A DNA stretch of 35,519 nucleotides from positions 1 to 35,519 of the forward strand of contig NZ_JALEGT010000078.1 in NCBI RefSeq assembly GCF_022763305.1, given 5' to 3'. Shown one piece after another: positions 18,437-32,548 of this stretch (positions are counted from its first letter, which is position 1; the number at the start of each line of letters is the position of its first letter). The stretch comes from Marivita sp. GTDB taxonomy: Bacteria; Pseudomonadota; Alphaproteobacteria; Rhodobacterales; Rhodobacteraceae. The translations under genes were made by a program, and so were the position numbers. The notes under the pieces are model-generated. The model did no database searches and was not told where the DNA came from. It saw only the letters and a program-made list of their open reading frames with translations.

Positions 18437-18456
18437 GTCAACCGACATCGAGAAAG

Positions 18457-18490
18457 AAAGGGCGCCTCATCGGGCGCCCTTTTGTGTGTT
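18457..18490 (+). terminator. Intrinsic terminator after the Do-family protease
   Basis: Stem AAAGGGCGCC (18457-18466) pairs with GGCGCCCTTT (18473-18482) around a six-base loop tcatcg, and is followed by T-rich sequence (ttttgtgtgttt). The stop codon is about 20 bases upstream. Confidence 0.9.
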
Positions 18491-18508: not shown

Positions 18509-18552
18509 GGTTTTTCCGTCAACGGAAAAACCGGATGCGTCGACGCATCCGG
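18509..18552. repeat. TCGA-hairpin cluster A (two hairpins)
   Basis: Two adjoining perfect hairpins between convergent degP and prpE. A1: 18509-18532, 10-bp stem GGTTTTTCCG with loop TCAA. A2: 18531-18552, 9-bp stem CCGGATGCG with loop TCGA; A2 is fully self-complementary. The two share the bases CC at 18531-18532. Neither is followed by a T-run, and a conventional terminator already sits upstream at 18457. The core GATGCG-TCGA-CGCATC also occurs in cluster C (27225-27244). Confidence 0.85.
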
Positions 18553-20454: not shown

Positions 20455-20550
20455 CCCGATCTCCTCCTGTGACGTGTTGGCATTGGCGTACGGCGCGCGG
20501 CACGTTGCGGCAAGCCTCACGATCCATCGCGCGGCAGAAGGCCGCAAAAA

Positions 20551-20661
20551 CTTTGCAGTTTTAGCGCTACCCGATTGCAAACTTTTGCAAACTCTTGCTG
20601 GATATGCAGAGTTTCTTTGCATGGTTTTCCGTTTTGCAAAGTTGCAAACTGTTGTGTGCAA
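20551..20661. promoter_or_regulatory. Cluster of TTGCAA half-sites upstream of prpE
   Basis: AT-rich region with repeated half-sites. Exact TTGCAA occurs at 20575, 20585, 20634 and 20642. Near matches are TTGCAG (20553), TTGCAT (20617) and GTGCAA (20656). The first exact pair reads ATTGCAAA-CT-TTTGCAAA, so the centres are 10 bases apart; the second pair is 8 bases apart. Regulators of the ScfR family, such as Rhodobacter sphaeroides PccR, are known to bind paired TTTGCAAA sites, from memory with a four-base gap. The spacing here differs, so the regulator's identity is an inference. No ScfR gene is in the window. Confidence 0.55.
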
Positions 20662-24769: not shown

Positions 24770-25477
24770 ATGCGGTGGGCCTGTCTGGCCGGTCTGGTGT
24801 TTGGGCTGGCATCGCAGGCCGCAGCACAGGAAATCGTGTCGGCGCGCTATGACGGGCCGACCACACGTTACCCGCACGGCGTGCTGGGCGACGAGATCGA
24901 ATATGACACATTGGTGGTGCGACTGAGCGACGGGCGCGAGATCGCCGCGCGCTGGGCGCAGGACATCGTGTTCGAGGATCTGTCGCCGCGTGTCGTGGAT
25001 GTGGATGGCAACGGGGTGCCCGAGGTGGTTGTGGTGGAAAGCCACGAGACCCAGGGCGCACGGCTGGCGATCTGGGGCATTCAGGATGGCACGCTCGCGC
25101 AGATCGCCGCAACACCCCATATCGGCACCCGGTTTCGCTGGCTGGCCCCGGTGGCTGTGGCCGATCTGGACGGGGACGGGCGGGTGGAACTGGCCTATGT
25201 GGACCGTCCGCATCTGGCCAAGGTGCTGCGGATCTGGCGGTACGGGGCGGATGGAGCCCTGACGCAGGTGGCCTCAGCCGAGGGCCTGACCAATCACCGG
25301 ATCGGCTGGGATTACATCGCGGGTGGTCTGCGCGATTGCGGGCAGGGGCCTGAGATGGTGCTCGCTGATGCCGGCTGGGCCAACGTGGTTGCGGTGCGCT
25401 TTGCGGACGTGGCACTCACGCAGCAGGTGCTGGGAAGGTATTCGCCCGAGGCTTTGGAACGCGCCTTGGGCTGCTGA
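24770..25477 (+). CDS. Exported VCBS/FG-GAP repeat-like protein
   Basis: 235 residues. Signal peptide MRWACLAGLVFGLASQAAAQ with cleavage expected after AAA or AQ. The mature part has two Asp-rich repeats of the calcium-binding beta-propeller type: VVDVDGNGVPEVVVVES and VAVADLDGDGRVELAYVDRP. A third weaker repeat is near GQGPEMVLADAGWANVVAV. Probably a small periplasmic propeller; function unknown. It starts two bases after the ferredoxin stop. A hairpin cluster follows, including one with a T-run. Confidence 0.8.
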   Translation: MRWACLAGLVFGLASQAAAQEIVSARYDGPTTRYPHGVLGDEIEYDTLVVRLSDGREIAARWAQDIVFEDLSPRVVDVDGNGVPEVVVVESHETQGARLAIWGIQDGTLAQIAATPHIGTRFRWLAPVAVADLDGDGRVELAYVDRPHLAKVLRIWRYGADGALTQVASAEGLTNHRIGWDYIAGGLRDCGQGPEMVLADAGWANVVAVRFADVALTQQVLGRYSPEALERALGC

Positions 25478-25481
25478 GCGG

Positions 25482-25596
25482 AAAGCGCCTTCGAAGGCGC
25501 TTTGGCACCGCGTTTCGAAACGCGTTTTTAACGCCAATTCGAATTGGCTTCGCGCGTTTTCGAAAACGCGGCCAAGGGCGGTCGACCGCCCTTGGC
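25482..25596. repeat. TCGA-hairpin cluster B (five hairpins)
   Basis: Five perfect self-complementary hairpins fill the convergent gap between the VCBS-like gene and yebC, each with TCGA in the loop. B1 25482-25503, 9-bp stem AAAGCGCCT. B2 25509-25524, 6-bp stem CGCGTT. B3 25533-25548, 6-bp stem GCCAAT. B4 25553-25570, 7-bp stem CGCGTTT. B5 25571-25596, 11-bp stem GCCAAGGGCGG. Stems differ while the centre is constant. Only B2 has a clear T-run after it. The sequence around B2 is repeated in cluster D. Confidence 0.9.
25509..25529 (+). terminator. Likely intrinsic terminator after the VCBS-like gene (hairpin B2)
   Basis: Stem CGCGTT-TCGA-AACGCG followed immediately by TTTTT (25525-25529). 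It is the only hairpin of cluster B with a T-tract in the direction of the upstream gene. The stem is short. Confidence 0.6.
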
Positions 25597-25603
25597 GCCG
25601 GTG

Positions 25604-26344
25604 TCAGAGTTGGGCCATGACCTCGTCGGTGGCCTCGAAATTGGTGGTGACGCGCTGCACGTCGTCATCATCTTCCAGCGCATCCACCAGCTTCATCAGC
25701 GCCTGCATGCCGTCGAGGTCGAGCTCGGTCGTGGTGGTCGGCTTCCAGACCAGCTTGGTCGAGTCGCTCTCGCCCAGTTCCGCCTCGAGCGCCGTGGCGA
25801 CCTCGTTCAGATCCGTGTCGGCGCACCAGATGACATGCCCGTCCTCGCTGCTCTCCACGTCCTCGGCGCCGGCTTCGATGGCGGCCATCATCACGGTGTC
25901 CGCATCGCCAACGCTGGCGGGGTAGGTGATTTCGCCCTTGCGGTCGAACATGAACCCGACCGATCCGGTCTCGCCCAGGTTGCCGCCGTTCTTGGTGAAG
26001 GTGGAGCGCACGTTCGACGCGGTGCGGTTGCGGTTGTCGGTCATCGCCTCGACGATCACGGCCACACCGTTCGGGCCGTAGCCCTCGTAGCGGATTTCCT
26101 CGTAATCCTCGCCATCGCCACCGGTCGCCTTCTTGATGGCGCGTTCGATGTTGTCCTTGGGCATGGATTGCGACTTGGCTTCCTTGATCGCAAGGCGCAG
26201 GCGCGGGTTCTTGTCGGGGTCGGGGTCGCCCATCTTGGCGGCGACGGTGATTTCCTTGGAGAACTTCGAGAAAAGCTTGGCGCGCACCGCGTCCTGACGA
26301 CCTTTGCGGTGCTGGATGTTTGCCCATTTGGAATGGCCGGCCAT
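25604..26344 (-). CDS. yebC: YebC/PmpR-family protein
   Basis: 246 residues with the family N-terminus [20 protein letters not shown] and the blocks [36 protein letters not shown] and [19 protein letters not shown]. The C-terminal half includes [10 protein letters not shown] and ends in an acidic stretch ([10 protein letters not shown]). YebC/TACO1 proteins were annotated as transcription regulators; more recent work links the family to translation of difficult sequences. Cytosolic. Start at 26344 with ggacagga upstream. Its 3' end faces hairpin cluster B. Confidence 0.96.
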
Positions 26345-26466: not shown

Positions 26467-27204
26467 ATGAAACCGTTTCTGATCCTGCAACTGCGTCCCG
26501 AGGCCGAGGCGAGCGATGGCGAATTCGCGGCCTTTCTCGAAAAGGGCGGGCTGACCGAAGCGCAGGTGCATCGCGTCTGTCTGGACCGCGAGCCGCTGCC
26601 CGAGGGGCTGGACCTGTCGGATTATGCCGGGGTGATCGTGGGCGGCGGGCCCGGCTGCGTATCCGACGATCCGGCCACCAAGGACCCGGTCGAGGCGCGG
26701 ATCGAGGCAGAGATCCTGTCGCTCATGCCCGAGATCACAGGGCGGGATGTGCCCTTCATGGGCTGCTGCTATGGCATCGGCATTCTGGGGCACCATCTGG
26801 GGGCCGAAGTGTCCAAGCGCCGCTTTGGCGAACCGGTGGGGCCGGTGACCTGCCGGGTGACGGTCGAGGGTGCGGCGGACCCGCTGGTGGCCGGGTTGCC
26901 GGGGGCCTTTGACGCCTTCGTTGGGCACAAGGAGGCGGTGCAGGAGCTGCCCGAGGGCTGTGTGCATCTTCTGGCATCCGACCCGAGCCCCTACCAGATG
27001 ATCCGGTACGGGCAGAACGTCTATGCCACGCAGTTTCACCCCGAGGCGGATGCCGGTGTGTTCGAAGAGCGGATCCGGATTTACCGCCACAAAGGGTATT
27101 TTGCGCCGGACACCGCGGATGATCTGATCGCCATGTGTCACGCCAGCGACGTGACCGTGCCGGTTGAGATCCTGCGCCGCTTCGTGGCGCGCTACGGCGG
27201 GTAG
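26467..27204 (+). CDS. Class-I glutamine amidotransferase-like protein (GMP synthase-like)
   Basis: 245 residues from the ATG at 26467. Seen are GVIVGGGPGCVSDDP, the nucleophile elbow FMGCCYGIGILGHHLG (Gly-Cys-Cys-Tyr-Gly) and the His/Glu pair in YATQFHPEAD, so the triad is complete. The domain stands alone with no synthetase part, as in the family annotated as GMP synthase-like glutamine amidotransferases; the acceptor is unknown. No good ribosome site; a promoter-like TTGCGC-16-TATGAG ends six bases before the ATG, so a leaderless mRNA is possible. Divergent from yebC. Its TAG stop is part of the first hairpin of cluster C. Confidence 0.88.
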   Translation: MKPFLILQLRPEAEASDGEFAAFLEKGGLTEAQVHRVCLDREPLPEGLDLSDYAGVIVGGGPGCVSDDPATKDPVEARIEAEILSLMPEITGRDVPFMGCCYGIGILGHHLGAEVSKRRFGEPVGPVTCRVTVEGAADPLVAGLPGAFDAFVGHKEAVQELPEGCVHLLASDPSPYQMIRYGQNVYATQFHPEADAGVFEERIRIYRHKGYFAPDTADDLIAMCHASDVTVPVEILRRFVARYGG

Positions 27205-27244
27205 GGGTCCGTCGACGGACCCCTCCGATGCGTCGACGCATCGG
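27203..27244. repeat. TCGA-hairpin cluster C (two hairpins)
   Basis: Two directly adjacent perfect hairpins between the convergent amidotransferase and SLC13 genes. C1 27203-27224, 9-bp stem AGGGGTCCG, loop TCGA; its first two bases belong to the TAG stop. C2 27225-27244, 8-bp stem CCGATGCG, loop TCGA. No T-run follows either on either strand. The 16-base core of C2 is identical to that of A2. Confidence 0.88.
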
Positions 27245-27249
27245 CCGCG

Positions 27250-29034
27250 TCAGAGCGGCCAGATCAGCGGAATGAGCGCCGAGGCCAGCATCCCCACGCT
27301 CAGGTTCAGCGGCACGCCCACTTTGAGGAAATCCGAAAACGCGTACCCGCCCGGCCCGTAAACCAGCGTGTTGGTCTGGTATCCGATGGGTGTCGCAAAG
27401 GCGCAGGACGCCGCCACCATCACCGCCACCACCAGCGGGCGGGGGTCGATCCCCATCACCTGGGCAAGGCCGATGGCAATCGGCGTGACCACCACCGCGA
27501 CCGCGTTGTTGCTGACCAGTTCGGTGAGCAGGCTGGTGAGCAGGTAGATTGCCCAGACGATGGCCCAGGGCGGCAGGTTCATCATGTAAGGGGCGAGGCC
27601 CTCGACAATAAGCGTGACCGCGCCTGAGGATTCGAGGGCGGCCCCGATGGCGAGCATTGCGAAAATGAGCGCCAGAAGCTGCCCTTCGACAAAGGAAAAC
27701 GCCTCGTCCGAGTCCACGCATTTCGTGAGCAGCACAACGGCGACTGCGATGATCGCCAGAGCAAGGATCGGGGCCACGCCAAACGCCGCCAGCAGCACCA
27801 GACCGGCAAGGGCCGCGATGGCGATGGGCGCGTGACTGCGCCGGTAGGCGCGGGCCGAGGGTTTGGCCACATCCACGAGGTTGAGTTCATCCGCCATGCG
27901 CTGGATGTCCTCCGGTGCGCCTTCGATCAGCAGCGTGTCGCCCACGCGCACCACCAGATCGTCAAGTTGCCGCCCGATGTTCTGGTTCCGCCGATGCACC
28001 GCCAGCGGATAGACCCCGTAGCGCCGCCGCAGGCGCATCGCGCCCAGACGCCGTCCGACCATCTTGCAGACCGGGGTGATCAGCACTTCGACCGTTGTGG
28101 TCTCCACCGCCGAGACCTGATCCACCCGGCGCAGCTCCTTGTTCCGCTGCAGGCTCAGCAGTTCCGTCATCTGCGTGCGCAGCACCACCCGGTCGCCCAC
28201 CTGCAGCGTCACGCCCTCCAGATTGCGCCGCAGCGAGGCATCGCCGCGGATCACGTCGATCAGGCGCACGCCGTCGCGTTTGAACAACTGCACACCCTGC
28301 ACCTCGCGGCCGATCAGGTTGCTGTCGGGCGGAATCACCGCTTCGGTGAAGAACTTCATCTTCGACCGGTCCGACAGCATCGCCGCCATGCTGGTGCGCT
28401 CGGGGAGCAGGTAGCGGCCAAAGGCCCAGAGATAGAACATGCCCCAGGCGATCAATACCAGCGCAAGGGGTGTGACTTCGAAGATGGTGAAGGGGTCCAA
28501 CCCCTGTGCGCGCGCAACCCCGTCGACCAGCAGGTTGGTCGAGGTGCCGATCAGCGTCAGCGTCCCGCCGAGAATGGCGGCATAGCTGAGCGGGATCAGC
28601 AGTTTCGACGGCGCGACCCCCAGTGTTTTTGCCAGTTGCACGAAGAGCGGCAGCATGACCACCACCACAGGTGTGTTGTTCATGAAGGCCGAGGCCACGA
28701 TCACCACGCCGATGATCCCCGCCATCGCGCGTTTCGGGCTTTTCTGCACCGCCGATTGCGCCGCATTGGTGAAGGCGTTGAGCGCCCCGGTGCGCACCAA
28801 GGCCCCCATCACCAGAAACATCGCCGCGATGGTCCAGGGCGCGGGGTTCGAAAGCACATCCAGCGCGTCCGCATAGGGCAGCACGCCGGTCGCCAGCAGG
28901 AAGGCCACACCGCCGATGGCCACCACCTCGGTCGGGTAGCTTTCGCGCACGAAGAGCGCAAACATGACCGCCACGGTGCCAAGCGCCAGCAGGGCCTGTG
29001 TGGTCTGGTCGAGGTCGATCAGTGCGGTGAGCAC
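27250..29034 (-). CDS. SLC13/DASS-family permease with two RCK_C (TrkA-C) domains
   Basis: 594 residues, starting at a GTG (29034) with aagga upstream. The first transmembrane half (about residues 10-200) contains MNNTPVVVVMLPLF and the SNT-like motif LIGTSTNLLVDG. A central cytosolic region (about 210-385) has two RCK_C-type modules (GVTLQVGDRVVLRTQ, DDLVVRVGDTLLIEGAPEDI). The second membrane half carries ELVSNNAVAVVVTPIAIGLA and PIGYQTNTLVYGPGGY. Known relatives move sulfate, dicarboxylates or other anions with sodium; substrate not predictable here. It begins 18 bases after the stop of the EamA gene, so they share a transcript. It converges on the amidotransferase gene at cluster C. Confidence 0.9.
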   Translation of the reverse strand: MLTALIDLDQTTQALLALGTVAVMFALFVRESYPTEVVAIGGVAFLLATGVLPYADALDVLSNPAPWTIAAMFLVMGALVRTGALNAFTNAAQSAVQKSPKRAMAGIIGVVIVASAFMNNTPVVVVMLPLFVQLAKTLGVAPSKLLIPLSYAAILGGTLTLIGTSTNLLVDGVARAQGLDPFTIFEVTPLALVLIAWGMFYLWAFGRYLLPERTSMAAMLSDRSKMKFFTEAVIPPDSNLIGREVQGVQLFKRDGVRLIDVIRGDASLRRNLEGVTLQVGDRVVLRTQMTELLSLQRNKELRRVDQVSAVETTTVEVLITPVCKMVGRRLGAMRLRRRYGVYPLAVHRRNQNIGRQLDDLVVRVGDTLLIEGAPEDIQRMADELNLVDVAKPSARAYRRSHAPIAIAALAGLVLLAAFGVAPILALAIIAVAVVLLTKCVDSDEAFSFVEGQLLALIFAMLAIGAALESSGAVTLIVEGLAPYMMNLPPWAIVWAIYLLTSLLTELVSNNAVAVVVTPIAIGLAQVMGIDPRPLVVAVMVAASCAFATPIGYQTNTLVYGPGGYAFSDFLKVGVPLNLSVGMLASALIPLIWPL

Positions 29035-30857: not shown

Positions 30858-30948
30858 CACCGCGTTTCGAAACGCGGTGGGAAAAGCCCATTCGGATGGG
30901 CTTTGAAGCGGCGTCGACGCCGCTTGGAAGCGATTTCGAAATCGCTTC
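30858..30948. repeat. TCGA-hairpin cluster D (four hairpins)
   Basis: Four perfect hairpins between the xseA stop and the metallophosphoesterase start, both on the minus strand. D1 30858-30879, 9-bp stem CACCGCGTT, loop TCGA. D2 30883-30904, 9-bp stem AAAGCCCAT, loop TCGG. D3 30906-30925, 8-bp stem AAGCGGCG, loop TCGA. D4 30927-30948, 9-bp stem GAAGCGATT, loop TCGA. On the minus strand only D2 is followed by a short T-run (TTTT including the stem end), so it could end xseA transcripts. D1 shares 22 bases with the B2 region. Confidence 0.9.
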
Positions 30949-30958
30949 GGCGCGCCTG

Positions 30959-32509
30959 TCAGAAGAGCGAGCCCTGTTCCGGCGGTTTCGGCTTGGACCG
31001 CGCCGCAGGTTTTGCGCCCGCCGCCCCAACCGTCATGCGCCCATCGGCGAATTCGATTTCGAGCGCCGTGGCCTTCTGTGCTGCCACCTGTGTCGTCACC
31101 ACCGCGCCATCGCCTCGCACCACCGCATAGCCGCGTTTCAGGGTTTCCTTGTAGCCCAGCGTTTCCCGCAGCCTGTCCAGCGCCGTCAGTCGCGACCGCC
31201 AGTCCTTCACCTGTGCCTGCCCGGCGCTGGACAGCCGCCGGGTCAGCGCCTCCAACCGGTCGCGCTTGACCGCCAGATCCCGTTCGATGGGCTTCAGCGT
31301 CAGCCGGTCGGCCCGTCGCGCGAGGGCCTCGCGCTTGGTCTCCACCACGCGCGACAGGCCCGGGGCCAGCCGTGTGGCGCTCTGATCAAACCGCCTGCGT
31401 TGCTCGGCCAGAGCGCGGGACAGAAGCGAGGGGCGCAGGGACGCGGACGCCTCGATGAGCCGCCCGCGCCGCAGATCGACCGACCGGGTCAGGGCGCGGG
31501 GCAACCTGTCTGCCATCAGGTCAAGCCGCTGTGTCGGCCCGGACAAAAGCGCGTCGGGCCGGGGCAGGGCGCGGGCCAGATCGCGCAGGCGCTGGTCGCG
31601 GGTCTGCATCCGCTGCGACACCGCGCGGGTCATGCGGGCCTGTTGGTCGCCGACCCAGCCCAGCAGTTCCAGCCGCACCGGCACCGCGATCTCTGCCGCC
31701 GCCGTAGGCGTCGGCGCGCGTTGGTCGGACACGAAATCGATCAGGGTGGTGTCGGTCTCATGCCCCACCGCCGAGATGAGCGGAATGTCCGAGGCCGCCG
31801 CCGCGCGTGCGACGATCTCTTCGTTGAAGCCCCAGAGGTCTTCGATGCTGCCACCCCCGCGAGCGACAATCAGCAGGTCGGGCCGGGGCAGGGCCCCGCC
31901 GGGTGTCAGCGCGTTGAAACCCGCAATCGCGCGGGCGACCTCGGGCGCACAGGCGGCACCCTGCACGGCCACCGGCCAGACCAGCACCTTGCGCGGAAAG
32001 CGGTCGCGCAACCGGTGCAGGATGTCCCGGATCACAGCCCCCGAGGGCGAGGTGATCACACCGATGATGTCGGGCAGGTAGGGCAGTTCCTTCTTGCGTG
32101 CCGGATCGAACAGACCTTCGGCCGCCAGCGCCTTCTTGCGTTTTTCCAGCATCGCCATCAGCGCGCCTTCGCCCGCGACGGTCACCTCGTCGACGTTGAG
32201 ATTGTACTTGGACTGCCCGCCAAAGGCCGTCATTCGCCCGGTGACGACAACCTCCAGCCCTTCTTCAGGGATCACGGAAAGCTGCGAGACCTGACCTTTC
32301 CACGTGGTGCAGGCCAGTACGCTCCGGTCGTCCTTGACGTCATAGTACAGATGCCCCGACCGCGCGGTGAACACGCGCCCCACCTCGCCACGCACGCGGA
32401 TGCGGCCGAACTGGTCCTCCAGCGTCTTCTTCACCGCGCCCGAGACCTCGGACACGGTATATTCCGGCATGTTCTGCCCCGGACGCGGATCGTCGATCAG
32501 ATCGGACAT
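30959..32509 (-). CDS. xseA: Exodeoxyribonuclease VII large subunit
   Basis: Catalytic subunit of the single-strand-specific exonuclease VII. 516 residues from the ATG at 32509 (gagg five bases upstream); the frame continues upstream antisense to purD and that part is rejected. N-terminal OB-fold (EYTVSEVSGAVKKTLEDQFG), catalytic domain with ELPYLPDIIGVITSPSGAVI, RDILHRLRDRFPRKV, IVARGGGSIEDLWGFNEE and SAVGHETDTTLIDFVSD, then a long Arg/Leu/Ala coiled-coil and the C-terminal LKRGYAVVR segment. The small subunit gene xseB is not in the window. Divergent from purD across 70 bases. Confidence 0.96.
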   Translation of the reverse strand: MSDLIDDPRPGQNMPEYTVSEVSGAVKKTLEDQFGRIRVRGEVGRVFTARSGHLYYDVKDDRSVLACTTWKGQVSQLSVIPEEGLEVVVTGRMTAFGGQSKYNLNVDEVTVAGEGALMAMLEKRKKALAAEGLFDPARKKELPYLPDIIGVITSPSGAVIRDILHRLRDRFPRKVLVWPVAVQGAACAPEVARAIAGFNALTPGGALPRPDLLIVARGGGSIEDLWGFNEEIVARAAAASDIPLISAVGHETDTTLIDFVSDQRAPTPTAAAEIAVPVRLELLGWVGDQQARMTRAVSQRMQTRDQRLRDLARALPRPDALLSGPTQRLDLMADRLPRALTRSVDLRRGRLIEASASLRPSLLSRALAEQRRRFDQSATRLAPGLSRVVETKREALARRADRLTLKPIERDLAVKRDRLEALTRRLSSAGQAQVKDWRSRLTALDRLRETLGYKETLKRGYAVVRGDGAVVTTQVAAQKATALEIEFADGRMTVGAAGAKPAARSKPKPPEQGSLF

Positions 32510-32519
32510 ATGGCCTCGC

Positions 32520-32548
32520 TTGCGCTTCACTCCCCCTGACCCTAGAAC
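32520..32548 (+). promoter_or_regulatory. Possible promoter of purD
   Basis: TTGCGC (32520-32525), 17-base spacer, TAGAAC (32543-32548), giving a leader of about 25 bases that contains the ribosome site ggag. Consensus match is moderate. Confidence 0.4.

Follow-up and report, generated by a model that had tools for sequence, protein, structure and literature searches.

Which process has placed rows of perfect hairpins at the 3′ ends of several genes in a Marivita genome, and what keeps their arms complementary while their sequences differ? The window considered here (the whole stretch of DNA analysed, 35,519 nt of contig NZ_JALEGT010000078.1) had been credited, from its letters alone, with thirteen perfect hairpins with stems of 6–11 bp in four clusters, and all of them were located again where claimed. 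A recount likewise returned TCGA as the four central bases of 11 of the 13, the exceptions being TCAA (18519) and TCGG (30892). The palindromes, to which no strand is assigned, fall mostly into two classes characterized below.

18509..18532, no strand: class I TTTCCG-type palindrome, loop at 18519 TCAA (minus strand: TTGA), stem 10
18531..18552, no strand: class I GATGCG palindrome, loop at 18540 TCGA, stem 9
25482..25503, no strand: class II palindrome ..GCGCCTTCGAAGGCGC.., loop at 25491, stem 9
25509..25524, no strand: class II palindrome CGCGTTTCGAAACGCG, loop at 25515, stem 6, then TTTTT (plus strand)
25533..25548, no strand: class II palindrome GCCAATTCGAATTGGC, loop at 25539, stem 6
25553..25570, no strand: class II palindrome CGCGTTTTCGAAAACGCG, loop at 25560, stem 7; covarying, relatives GCATTTTCGAAAATGC
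25571..25596, no strand: palindrome GCCAAGGGCGGTCGACCGCCCTTGGC, loop at 25582, stem 11; innermost pair covarying, relatives GGGCGTTCGAACGCCC
27203..27224, no strand: class I palindrome AGGGGTCCGTCGACGGACCCCT, loop at 27212, stem 9
27225..27244, no strand: class I GATGCG palindrome, loop at 27233, stem 8
30858..30879, no strand: class II palindrome CACCGCGTTTCGAAACGCGGTG, loop at 30867, stem 9
30883..30904, no strand: class II palindrome with TCGG loop at 30892, stem 9
30906..30925, no strand: palindrome AAGCGGCGTCGACGCCGCTT, loop at 30914, stem 8
30927..30948, no strand: class II palindrome GAAGCGATTTCGAAATCGCTTC, loop at 30936, stem 9; xseA stop codon 10 nt away

The palindromes at 18509..18532 and 18531..18552 are class I partners, in canonical order on the minus strand. 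That at 27203..27224 starts within a TAG stop codon, has a stem that covaries with GTTTCCG forms and is separated by zero unpaired bases from the stem of 27225..27244. Those at 25509..25524 and 25533..25548 constitute an extra two-hairpin segment, present in G300 and HCUG and absent in other array-bearing relatives. Folded as RNA, seven stretches drawn from the clusters each outdid all 200 of their shuffles (z −4.4 to −5.5), and the predicted folds mostly reproduced the expected hairpins; for the 25482 array, on either strand, the minimum-energy fold pairs hairpin 2 with hairpin 4. Searches of the window with Rfam 15 (gathering score) and for tRNAs returned no match. Elsewhere in the window, the remainder of which is GC-rich, three AT-rich hairpins with TTTGCA or TTGCAAA motifs lie close together at 20550–20660.

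On a gene map produced by our own gene-finding script, with names from Pfam, three of the clusters separate convergent genes and the fourth adjoins the stop codon of xseA, in agreement with the preliminary description.

18456..18483, plus strand: hairpin resembling a terminator, followed by a T-run; lies before the first cluster and outside the element
24770..25477, plus strand: FG-GAP repeat protein gene, convergent partner at cluster 25482–25596
25604..26344, minus strand: YebC/TACO1 gene, convergent partner at cluster 25482–25596
26467..27204, plus strand: class-I glutamine amidotransferase gene, convergent partner at cluster 27203–27244
27250..29034, minus strand: CitMHS/TrkA_C transporter gene (citrate-type), convergent partner at cluster 27203–27244
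30959..32530, minus strand: xseA (exonuclease VII large subunit), with the fourth cluster at its 3′ end

Further cluster-flanking genes identified with Pfam encode an AMP-binding (acetyl-CoA synthetase type) enzyme, a trypsin/PDZ protease and YmdB.

An excess of TCGA-centred hairpins in the genome

The frequency of such hairpins was assessed in a non-random sample of the same genome comprising 61 stretches and 1,030,701 bases, window included, of a total of 4,426,255. The first part of the sample consists of the starts of contigs C1–C20, taken in number order, and the second of 40 stretches on contigs preselected by a TCGA pattern search, including C48 and C93 with exact matches; loci L001–L004 were excluded from counts. 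Within these 1.03 Mb, 141 hairpins have stems of at least 8 bp, with TCGA at the centre of 53, TCAA of 11, TTGA of 8 and the next commonest centre, GTAC, of 5. Intergenic TCGA hairpins with stems of at least 8 bp number 50 in the real sequence and 0 in each of 30 dinucleotide shuffles, and among perfect palindromes of at least 16 bp the sample has 61 centred on TCGA against 9 for the runner-up. A chance origin of the TCGA hairpins is excluded, and the elements are confirmed as a real repeated feature of the lineage. Counting as family units all TCGA hairpins with stems of 6 bp or more and all TCAA or TTGA hairpins with stems of 7 bp or more, the 1.03 Mb hold 81. Apart from these, another perfect palindrome, (C)AGATTCTTCGTACGAAGAATCT(G), is dispersed through the same 1.03 Mb in five copies, near variants included (L030:2756, L048:8956, L050:16251, L051:8759 and L064:19280), each 8–103 nt past a predicted plus-strand gene.

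Two classes of tiled palindromes

The own-genome sample contains 41 arrays, 26 of which are made of two units. Among listed spacings of neighbours less than 60 nt apart, 47 of 53 measure 21–24 nt, so that stems usually abut. At 48 junctions between successive stems, the commonest numbers of unpaired nucleotides are zero (12 junctions) and one (9), and fully extended stems overlap at 12. Class I joins two unlike palindromes, one with a GATGCG and the other with a TTTCCG stem, and has the core CGTCGACG; class II has the core TTCGAA and many stem sequences. The class I linker is 5 nt (77) or 6 nt (73) long in all 150 examined of 225 matches, where 2–10 nt were allowed. Whole class I pairs also occur in tandem, at L036:18786–19028 with a period of ~67 nt and at L044:10717–10960 with a period of ~103 nt, a sign of array growth via larger duplications.

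Stems had been portrayed as varying widely under the sole constraint of complementarity. This holds for the outer arms, which are free yet complementary: in 24 class I pairs, the first outer pair is complementary in 23/24 and 24/24 cases, with arms differing between copies. The stems as a whole are not simply free, however, in that class I stems recur, TTTCCG accounting for 19 and GATGCG for 17 of 100 intergenic units from three genomes. A strictly fixed UCGA loop is not supported, class I loops being varied. Among 150 examined, GATGCG units have TCGA in 72, TTGA in 23, GTGA in 14 and TCAA in 10, and TTTCCG units have TTGA in 57, TCGA in 28 and TCAA in 14; recognition of a single tetraloop is therefore unlikely to be the whole story. 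The base 5′ of the loop is constrained as well: in 74 intergenic TCGA units from three genomes it is G in 38, T in 35, A in 1 and C in 0, against a background in which A, T and C are about equally used before all 7,927 TCGA of the sample.

Perfect DNA palindromes with conserved cores (CGTCGACG and TTCGAA) and listed spacings mostly of 21–24 bp might alternatively be bound, as double-stranded DNA, by a dimeric protein of the nucleoid or of supercoiling control, with dyads 21–22 bp apart on one face. We regard this as very unlikely indeed, given that the stems vary widely, that class I loops are often non-palindromic while their stems stay perfect, and that divergent gaps hold just 2 of the 81 units.

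Placement at gene 3′ ends

The 81 units bear out the 3′-end placement proposed for the window: 41 lie in convergent gaps, 31 in codirectional gaps, 2 in divergent gaps, 2 inside genes and 5 at stretch edges. Convergent gaps total 13,322 nt, codirectional gaps 60,734 nt and divergent gaps 29,100 nt; convergent gaps thus make up 13% of the intergenic length yet hold 41 of the 74 intergenic units. Outer edges lie no more than 13 nt from a stop codon in 35 of 56 cases, and start-codon distances are 23–184 nt (n = 16). Non-family hairpins with stems of 7 bp or more (27 convergent, 40 codirectional, 4 divergent, 83 inside genes, 7 at edges) are also enriched at 3′ ends, as expected for terminators. 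With arrays in only 21 of the 114 convergent gaps examined, the element is optional. The orientation of class I relative to the gene is sense in 11 instances and antisense in 3, corresponding to 8 versus 3 loci (p 0.23), a lean that is not significant.

In other Marivita-genus genomes, placement in G306 and G298 agrees with the 3′-end rule, and of two 400-kb samples of genus relatives, one held 17 units, 9 of them convergent, 7 codirectional and 1 divergent, and the other held 9, every one convergent. Other genera were sampled with four short G186 stretches left out. The rule is followed in G208, where 19 of 23 units are at such gaps (11 convergent, 8 codirectional) and 4 inside genes, and in G277, with 8 of 9 (4 convergent, 4 codirectional) and the ninth inside a gene. 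Units were few in G191, where two share a divergent gap, two fall within a predicted gene and one is convergent, and in G142, where four are divergent and three convergent; in both they are mostly off clear 3′ ends. One combination of two class II palindromes occurs in G191 at both L187:11358 and L188:13173, off clear gene 3′ ends, and in that genus the pair may be carried within a larger repeat.

Hairpins readable both ways, sited at 3′ ends and in convergent gaps, recall bidirectional intrinsic terminators, which share with the arrays the form of GC-rich hairpins after stop codons and differ from them in that T is not enriched outside the arrays. T makes up 15.5% of the 8 nt outside the outermost stems, against 18.6% in the whole sample, and across 82 outer edges the maximum T count in those 8 nt is 4. 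By the rule applied here, a T-run terminator-like site is absent from 17 of the 21 array-bearing convergent gaps, a point in favour of terminators, but array-free gaps lack one nearly as often (65 of 93; Fisher p 0.42), and the complementarity of arrays with T-run sites in convergent gaps is not significant. Within the window, it was correctly noted that most hairpins have no T-run, TTTTT directly following only 2 of the 13: 25509–25524 on the plus strand, and 18531–18552 on the minus strand, where it falls within the neighbouring stem. The former, with its TTTTT tail, itself scored as terminator-like and could have a terminator role. Where the first cluster (18509–18552) had been described as sitting past a terminator, a terminator-like site at 18456–18483 does already lie upstream of it; a scan of the window found 9 terminator-like sites versus 8.6 in shuffles, that is, no excess overall. 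For the elements as a whole, a function as intrinsic terminators appears very improbable.

Covariation and turnover at orthologous sites

Selection on structure had been proposed, and pairing is indeed kept while sequence changes, with two-sided stem changes at orthologous sites. Alignment A1 (27203 cluster) retained 9 and alignment A2 (25482 cluster) 11 of 18 orthologous rows, after removal of duplicates (HCUG = G300; S4E24 = G310, the latter used in A2) and of rows with no array, a remnant, or a diverged or replaced array. Two-sided changes affect 3 of 16 pairs in A1, with 97.9% of cells paired, and 8 of 25 pairs in A2, with 95.3% of cells paired. The covariation score was reached by 0 of 500 shuffles in A1 and A2 alike; the A1 count of two-sided pairs, considered alone, is unexceptional (89 of 500 shuffles). 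By eye, relatives have GTTTCCG, GGTTCCG or GGGTCCG stems at 27205–27249, the intact copies with a matching other arm, and between L031 and G306 both arms of one hairpin changed together.

Whole arrays are also exchanged or lost. As judged by eye, the 27203 cluster is replaced by two TTCGAA hairpins in G301 and by one TTCGAA hairpin plus one TGCA-loop hairpin in G303; it survives as remnants in S4E24/G310 and G297, and G309 has none. At 25478–25603, most array-bearing relatives carry three hairpins or remnants, and five are found in the window, G300 and HCUG. The 30858 array has decayed in G298 (by eye). A single genus thereby offers natural covariation, loss and same-site replacement, which helps to separate structural selection from sequence copying.

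Template switching in hairpins can correct one arm from the other. Mutational bias alone, in which such switching copies one arm onto the other and leaves the turn uncorrected, predicts two-sided changes, perfect arms and a variable loop, all of which are seen. It nevertheless seems improbable as the full explanation, for it leaves unaccounted for why arrays sit at stop codons and are over-represented in convergent gaps, why G or T precedes TCGA, and why one palindrome is replaced by another at the same site.

Distribution across the genus and family

The GATGCG/TTTCCG composite, searched within the genus, occurs in 16 of 17 genomes with 225 matches, and the CGTCGACG pair in 15 of 17, at 0–14 copies each. 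In a sample of 295 genomes of the family, the CGTCGACG pair has 14 copies in the window's own genome and 1–2 in nine of the 294 others. One match from each of these nine was examined (second matches of G177 and G181 left out), and 8 of the 9 are attributable to chance, the stem round either TCGA extending over just 2–3 bp. Outside the genus, G181 has at L148:1501 a real back-to-back pair with the CGTCGACG core, whose stems, 10 and 8 bp long, differ in sequence from those of class I.

Class II pairs number 30 in the window's genome and 10–54 in 14 other genera among the 294 genomes, with at most one control match. With class-II-rich defined as at least 10 pairs and at most one control match, 15 of 295 genomes qualify, including the window's own; G014 (20 pairs, 8 controls) is excluded. 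The idea that class II is constant throughout the family was rejected, the rich genomes representing a scattered minority of genera. Among 113 genomes outside the family, only G400 reaches 10 class II pairs (13, control 2). Against the YebC loci of 80 public genome records, the window stands close to Marivita (98% identity to Marivita sp. HCUG1433-5), and TCGA arrays were found only at the locus of that strain, which has nine TCGA hairpins with stems of 7 bp or more. A second Marivita YebC locus (isolate S4E-24) has no TCGA arrays, and those of Leisingera, Roseovarius, Pseudaestuariivita, Shimia and Palleronia have one TCGA hairpin each.

The patchy spread of class II among genera and the fixed heterodimeric composite, with its linker of 5 or 6 nt in 16 of 17 genus genomes, are features that selfish palindromic DNA might display, single-stranded hairpins being excised and inserted elsewhere by a transposase or recombinase and 3′-end placement reflecting tolerated insertion. 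The strand polarity of TTTCCG-unit loops (TTGA 57 versus TCAA 14, counts in which orthologues are non-independent) and the tandem class I pairs in L036 and L044 point the same way. On the other hand, the search for PF01797 (Y1/REP transposase) was negative for the window's genome (G000) and for 13 of 17 genus genomes, arrays adjoin stop codons instead of scattering over codirectional and divergent gaps, and the substitution of other hairpins at one site suggests some use there. We judge the selfish explanation to be possible, if on the whole unlikely.

Relation to known repeats

That no named family matches, as the preliminary description had it, is too strong a statement, for the elements behave like REPs and are similar in kind to Br-REP1 of Bradyrhizobium. 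In Bradyrhizobium japonicum, Br-REP1 is described as a perfect 20-bp palindrome centred on TCGA that occurs about 200 times between genes and that, with two neighbouring palindromes, forms an array where the 3′ UTRs of convergent genes overlap; its abundance is strongly unequal among related species, and dRNA-seq data are suggestive of complementary transcripts (Hahn et al. 2016, PMC5082802). It is the nearest described relative in kind: according to that account, it is, as here, a TCGA-centred perfect palindrome in a multi-palindrome convergent array. The two are nonetheless distinct. The Br-REP1 stem CCGGAATC/GATTCCGG, with any four-base centre, was found in 0 of 17 genus genomes; Br-REP1 has a C before TCGA, where C is absent in the 74 intergenic TCGA units here; and its description gives a single consensus, in contrast to the two classes, many stems and fixed heterodimer of the present elements.

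CGTC-type REPs, mostly from alphaproteobacteria, are reported to have stems of 8–9 bp, loops mostly of 4–5 nt and apparently no dedicated transposase; GTAG/CGTC REPs prefer convergent and unidirectional gaps, and in the two species shown, most tagged copies in convergent gaps have fewer than 20 bp between them and the 3′ end on either side (Di Nocera et al. 2013, PMC3733652). Short palindromes and a preference for 3′ ends and convergent gaps are thus shared with the elements here. Most tagged REP dimers, by that account, have spacers of 20–100 bp, whereas the present units are tiled back to back. The sequences flanking 24 class I pairs yielded no GTAG/CGTC head or CCA tail (top column 0.94 bit), the class II flanks having been inspected by eye. 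RAYT-linked REPs and BIMEs, as characterized by Nunvar et al. 2010 (PMC2817692), resemble the arrays in being dispersed extragenic palindromes that form composite arrays, and differ in their Y1 transposase, which has 0 matches in the window's own genome, 4 of 17 genus genomes being positive. The Y1 transposase PF01797 was also considered as a driver of class II and rejected: it is present in 2 of 14 class-II-rich and 1 of 14 class-II-free family genomes, with no evident link. The main text of a REP survey (PMC12306157) is without Rhodobacter, Roseo- or Marivita, and a search of the open-access literature, with subscription papers outside its scope, found no such elements for Rhodobacteraceae among the matches listed.

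The broad definition of a REP describes these elements well: short palindromes in 81 dispersed units, 2 of them inside genes, with a preference for 3′ ends and convergent gaps. Because the class I pairs carry no such tag, the genome has no Y1 transposase match, and the matches listed from the open-access literature held no description from Rhodobacteraceae, they look like a new form within the REP class, an untagged branch of it.

A candidate role in transcript 3′-end formation

REP-like elements are mostly familiar either as repeats dispersed in genomes or as stabilisers of mRNA. Of the options initially offered for the window, a transcript-end stabiliser or separator of convergent transcripts fits best, and recognition of one fixed tetraloop is unlikely to suffice. 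On the evidence of sequence, we consider it moderately probable that the arrays are untagged REP-like elements, specific to the lineage, and that as RNA hairpins they set the 3′ ends of transcripts and shield them. Each unit would form an RNA hairpin in a 3′ UTR, and one array could serve both transcripts of a convergent pair, since a unit is nearly its own reverse complement. RNA polymerase would pass the array and be released further on by Rho or collision, after which 3′–5′ exonucleases would shorten the RNA until halted, on either side, by the first stable hairpin, the hairpins then fixing and protecting the RNA end as a ‘trim stop’. New copies would arise via duplication and copying from other sites. 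In E. coli and B. subtilis, Rho-ended transcripts are described as being trimmed by exonucleases to a blocking stable structure (PMC12350095).

The recurrence of class I stems suggests spread partly by copying; more specifically, a role in structure alone would not call for identical GATGCG/TTTCCG stems, whose recurrence suggests either copying or a sequence-specific reader. Inverted repeats are reported to be enriched after bacterial stop codons and, near terminators, to vary more in their spacers than in their arms (PMC13155455), and it speaks against the preferred reading that 3′-end hairpins with conserved arms and variable spacers are, by that report, a general bacterial pattern. A more tentative reading, which we think unlikely, sees in the arrays a portable, sequence-flexible 3′-end module of coaxially stackable hairpin pairs that would be recognized by an RNA-binding protein or nuclease dedicated to it in this lineage, the loops being of KYGA type (UCGA, UUGA, GUGA, GCGA) next to a closing G-C or U-A. 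If this were true, one array would cap both convergent messages, and arrays would be interchangeable at the same stop codons.

The convergent gene pairs described here provide a clear test set for 3′-end formation without U-tracts in alphaproteobacteria. As a separate observation on array-bearing 3′ ends, GCGG occurs within about 14 nt past the stop codon at 19 of 49 of them, against 106 of 1004 predicted genes (the windows being cut slightly differently), and may belong to the element itself or to the sites that it favours.
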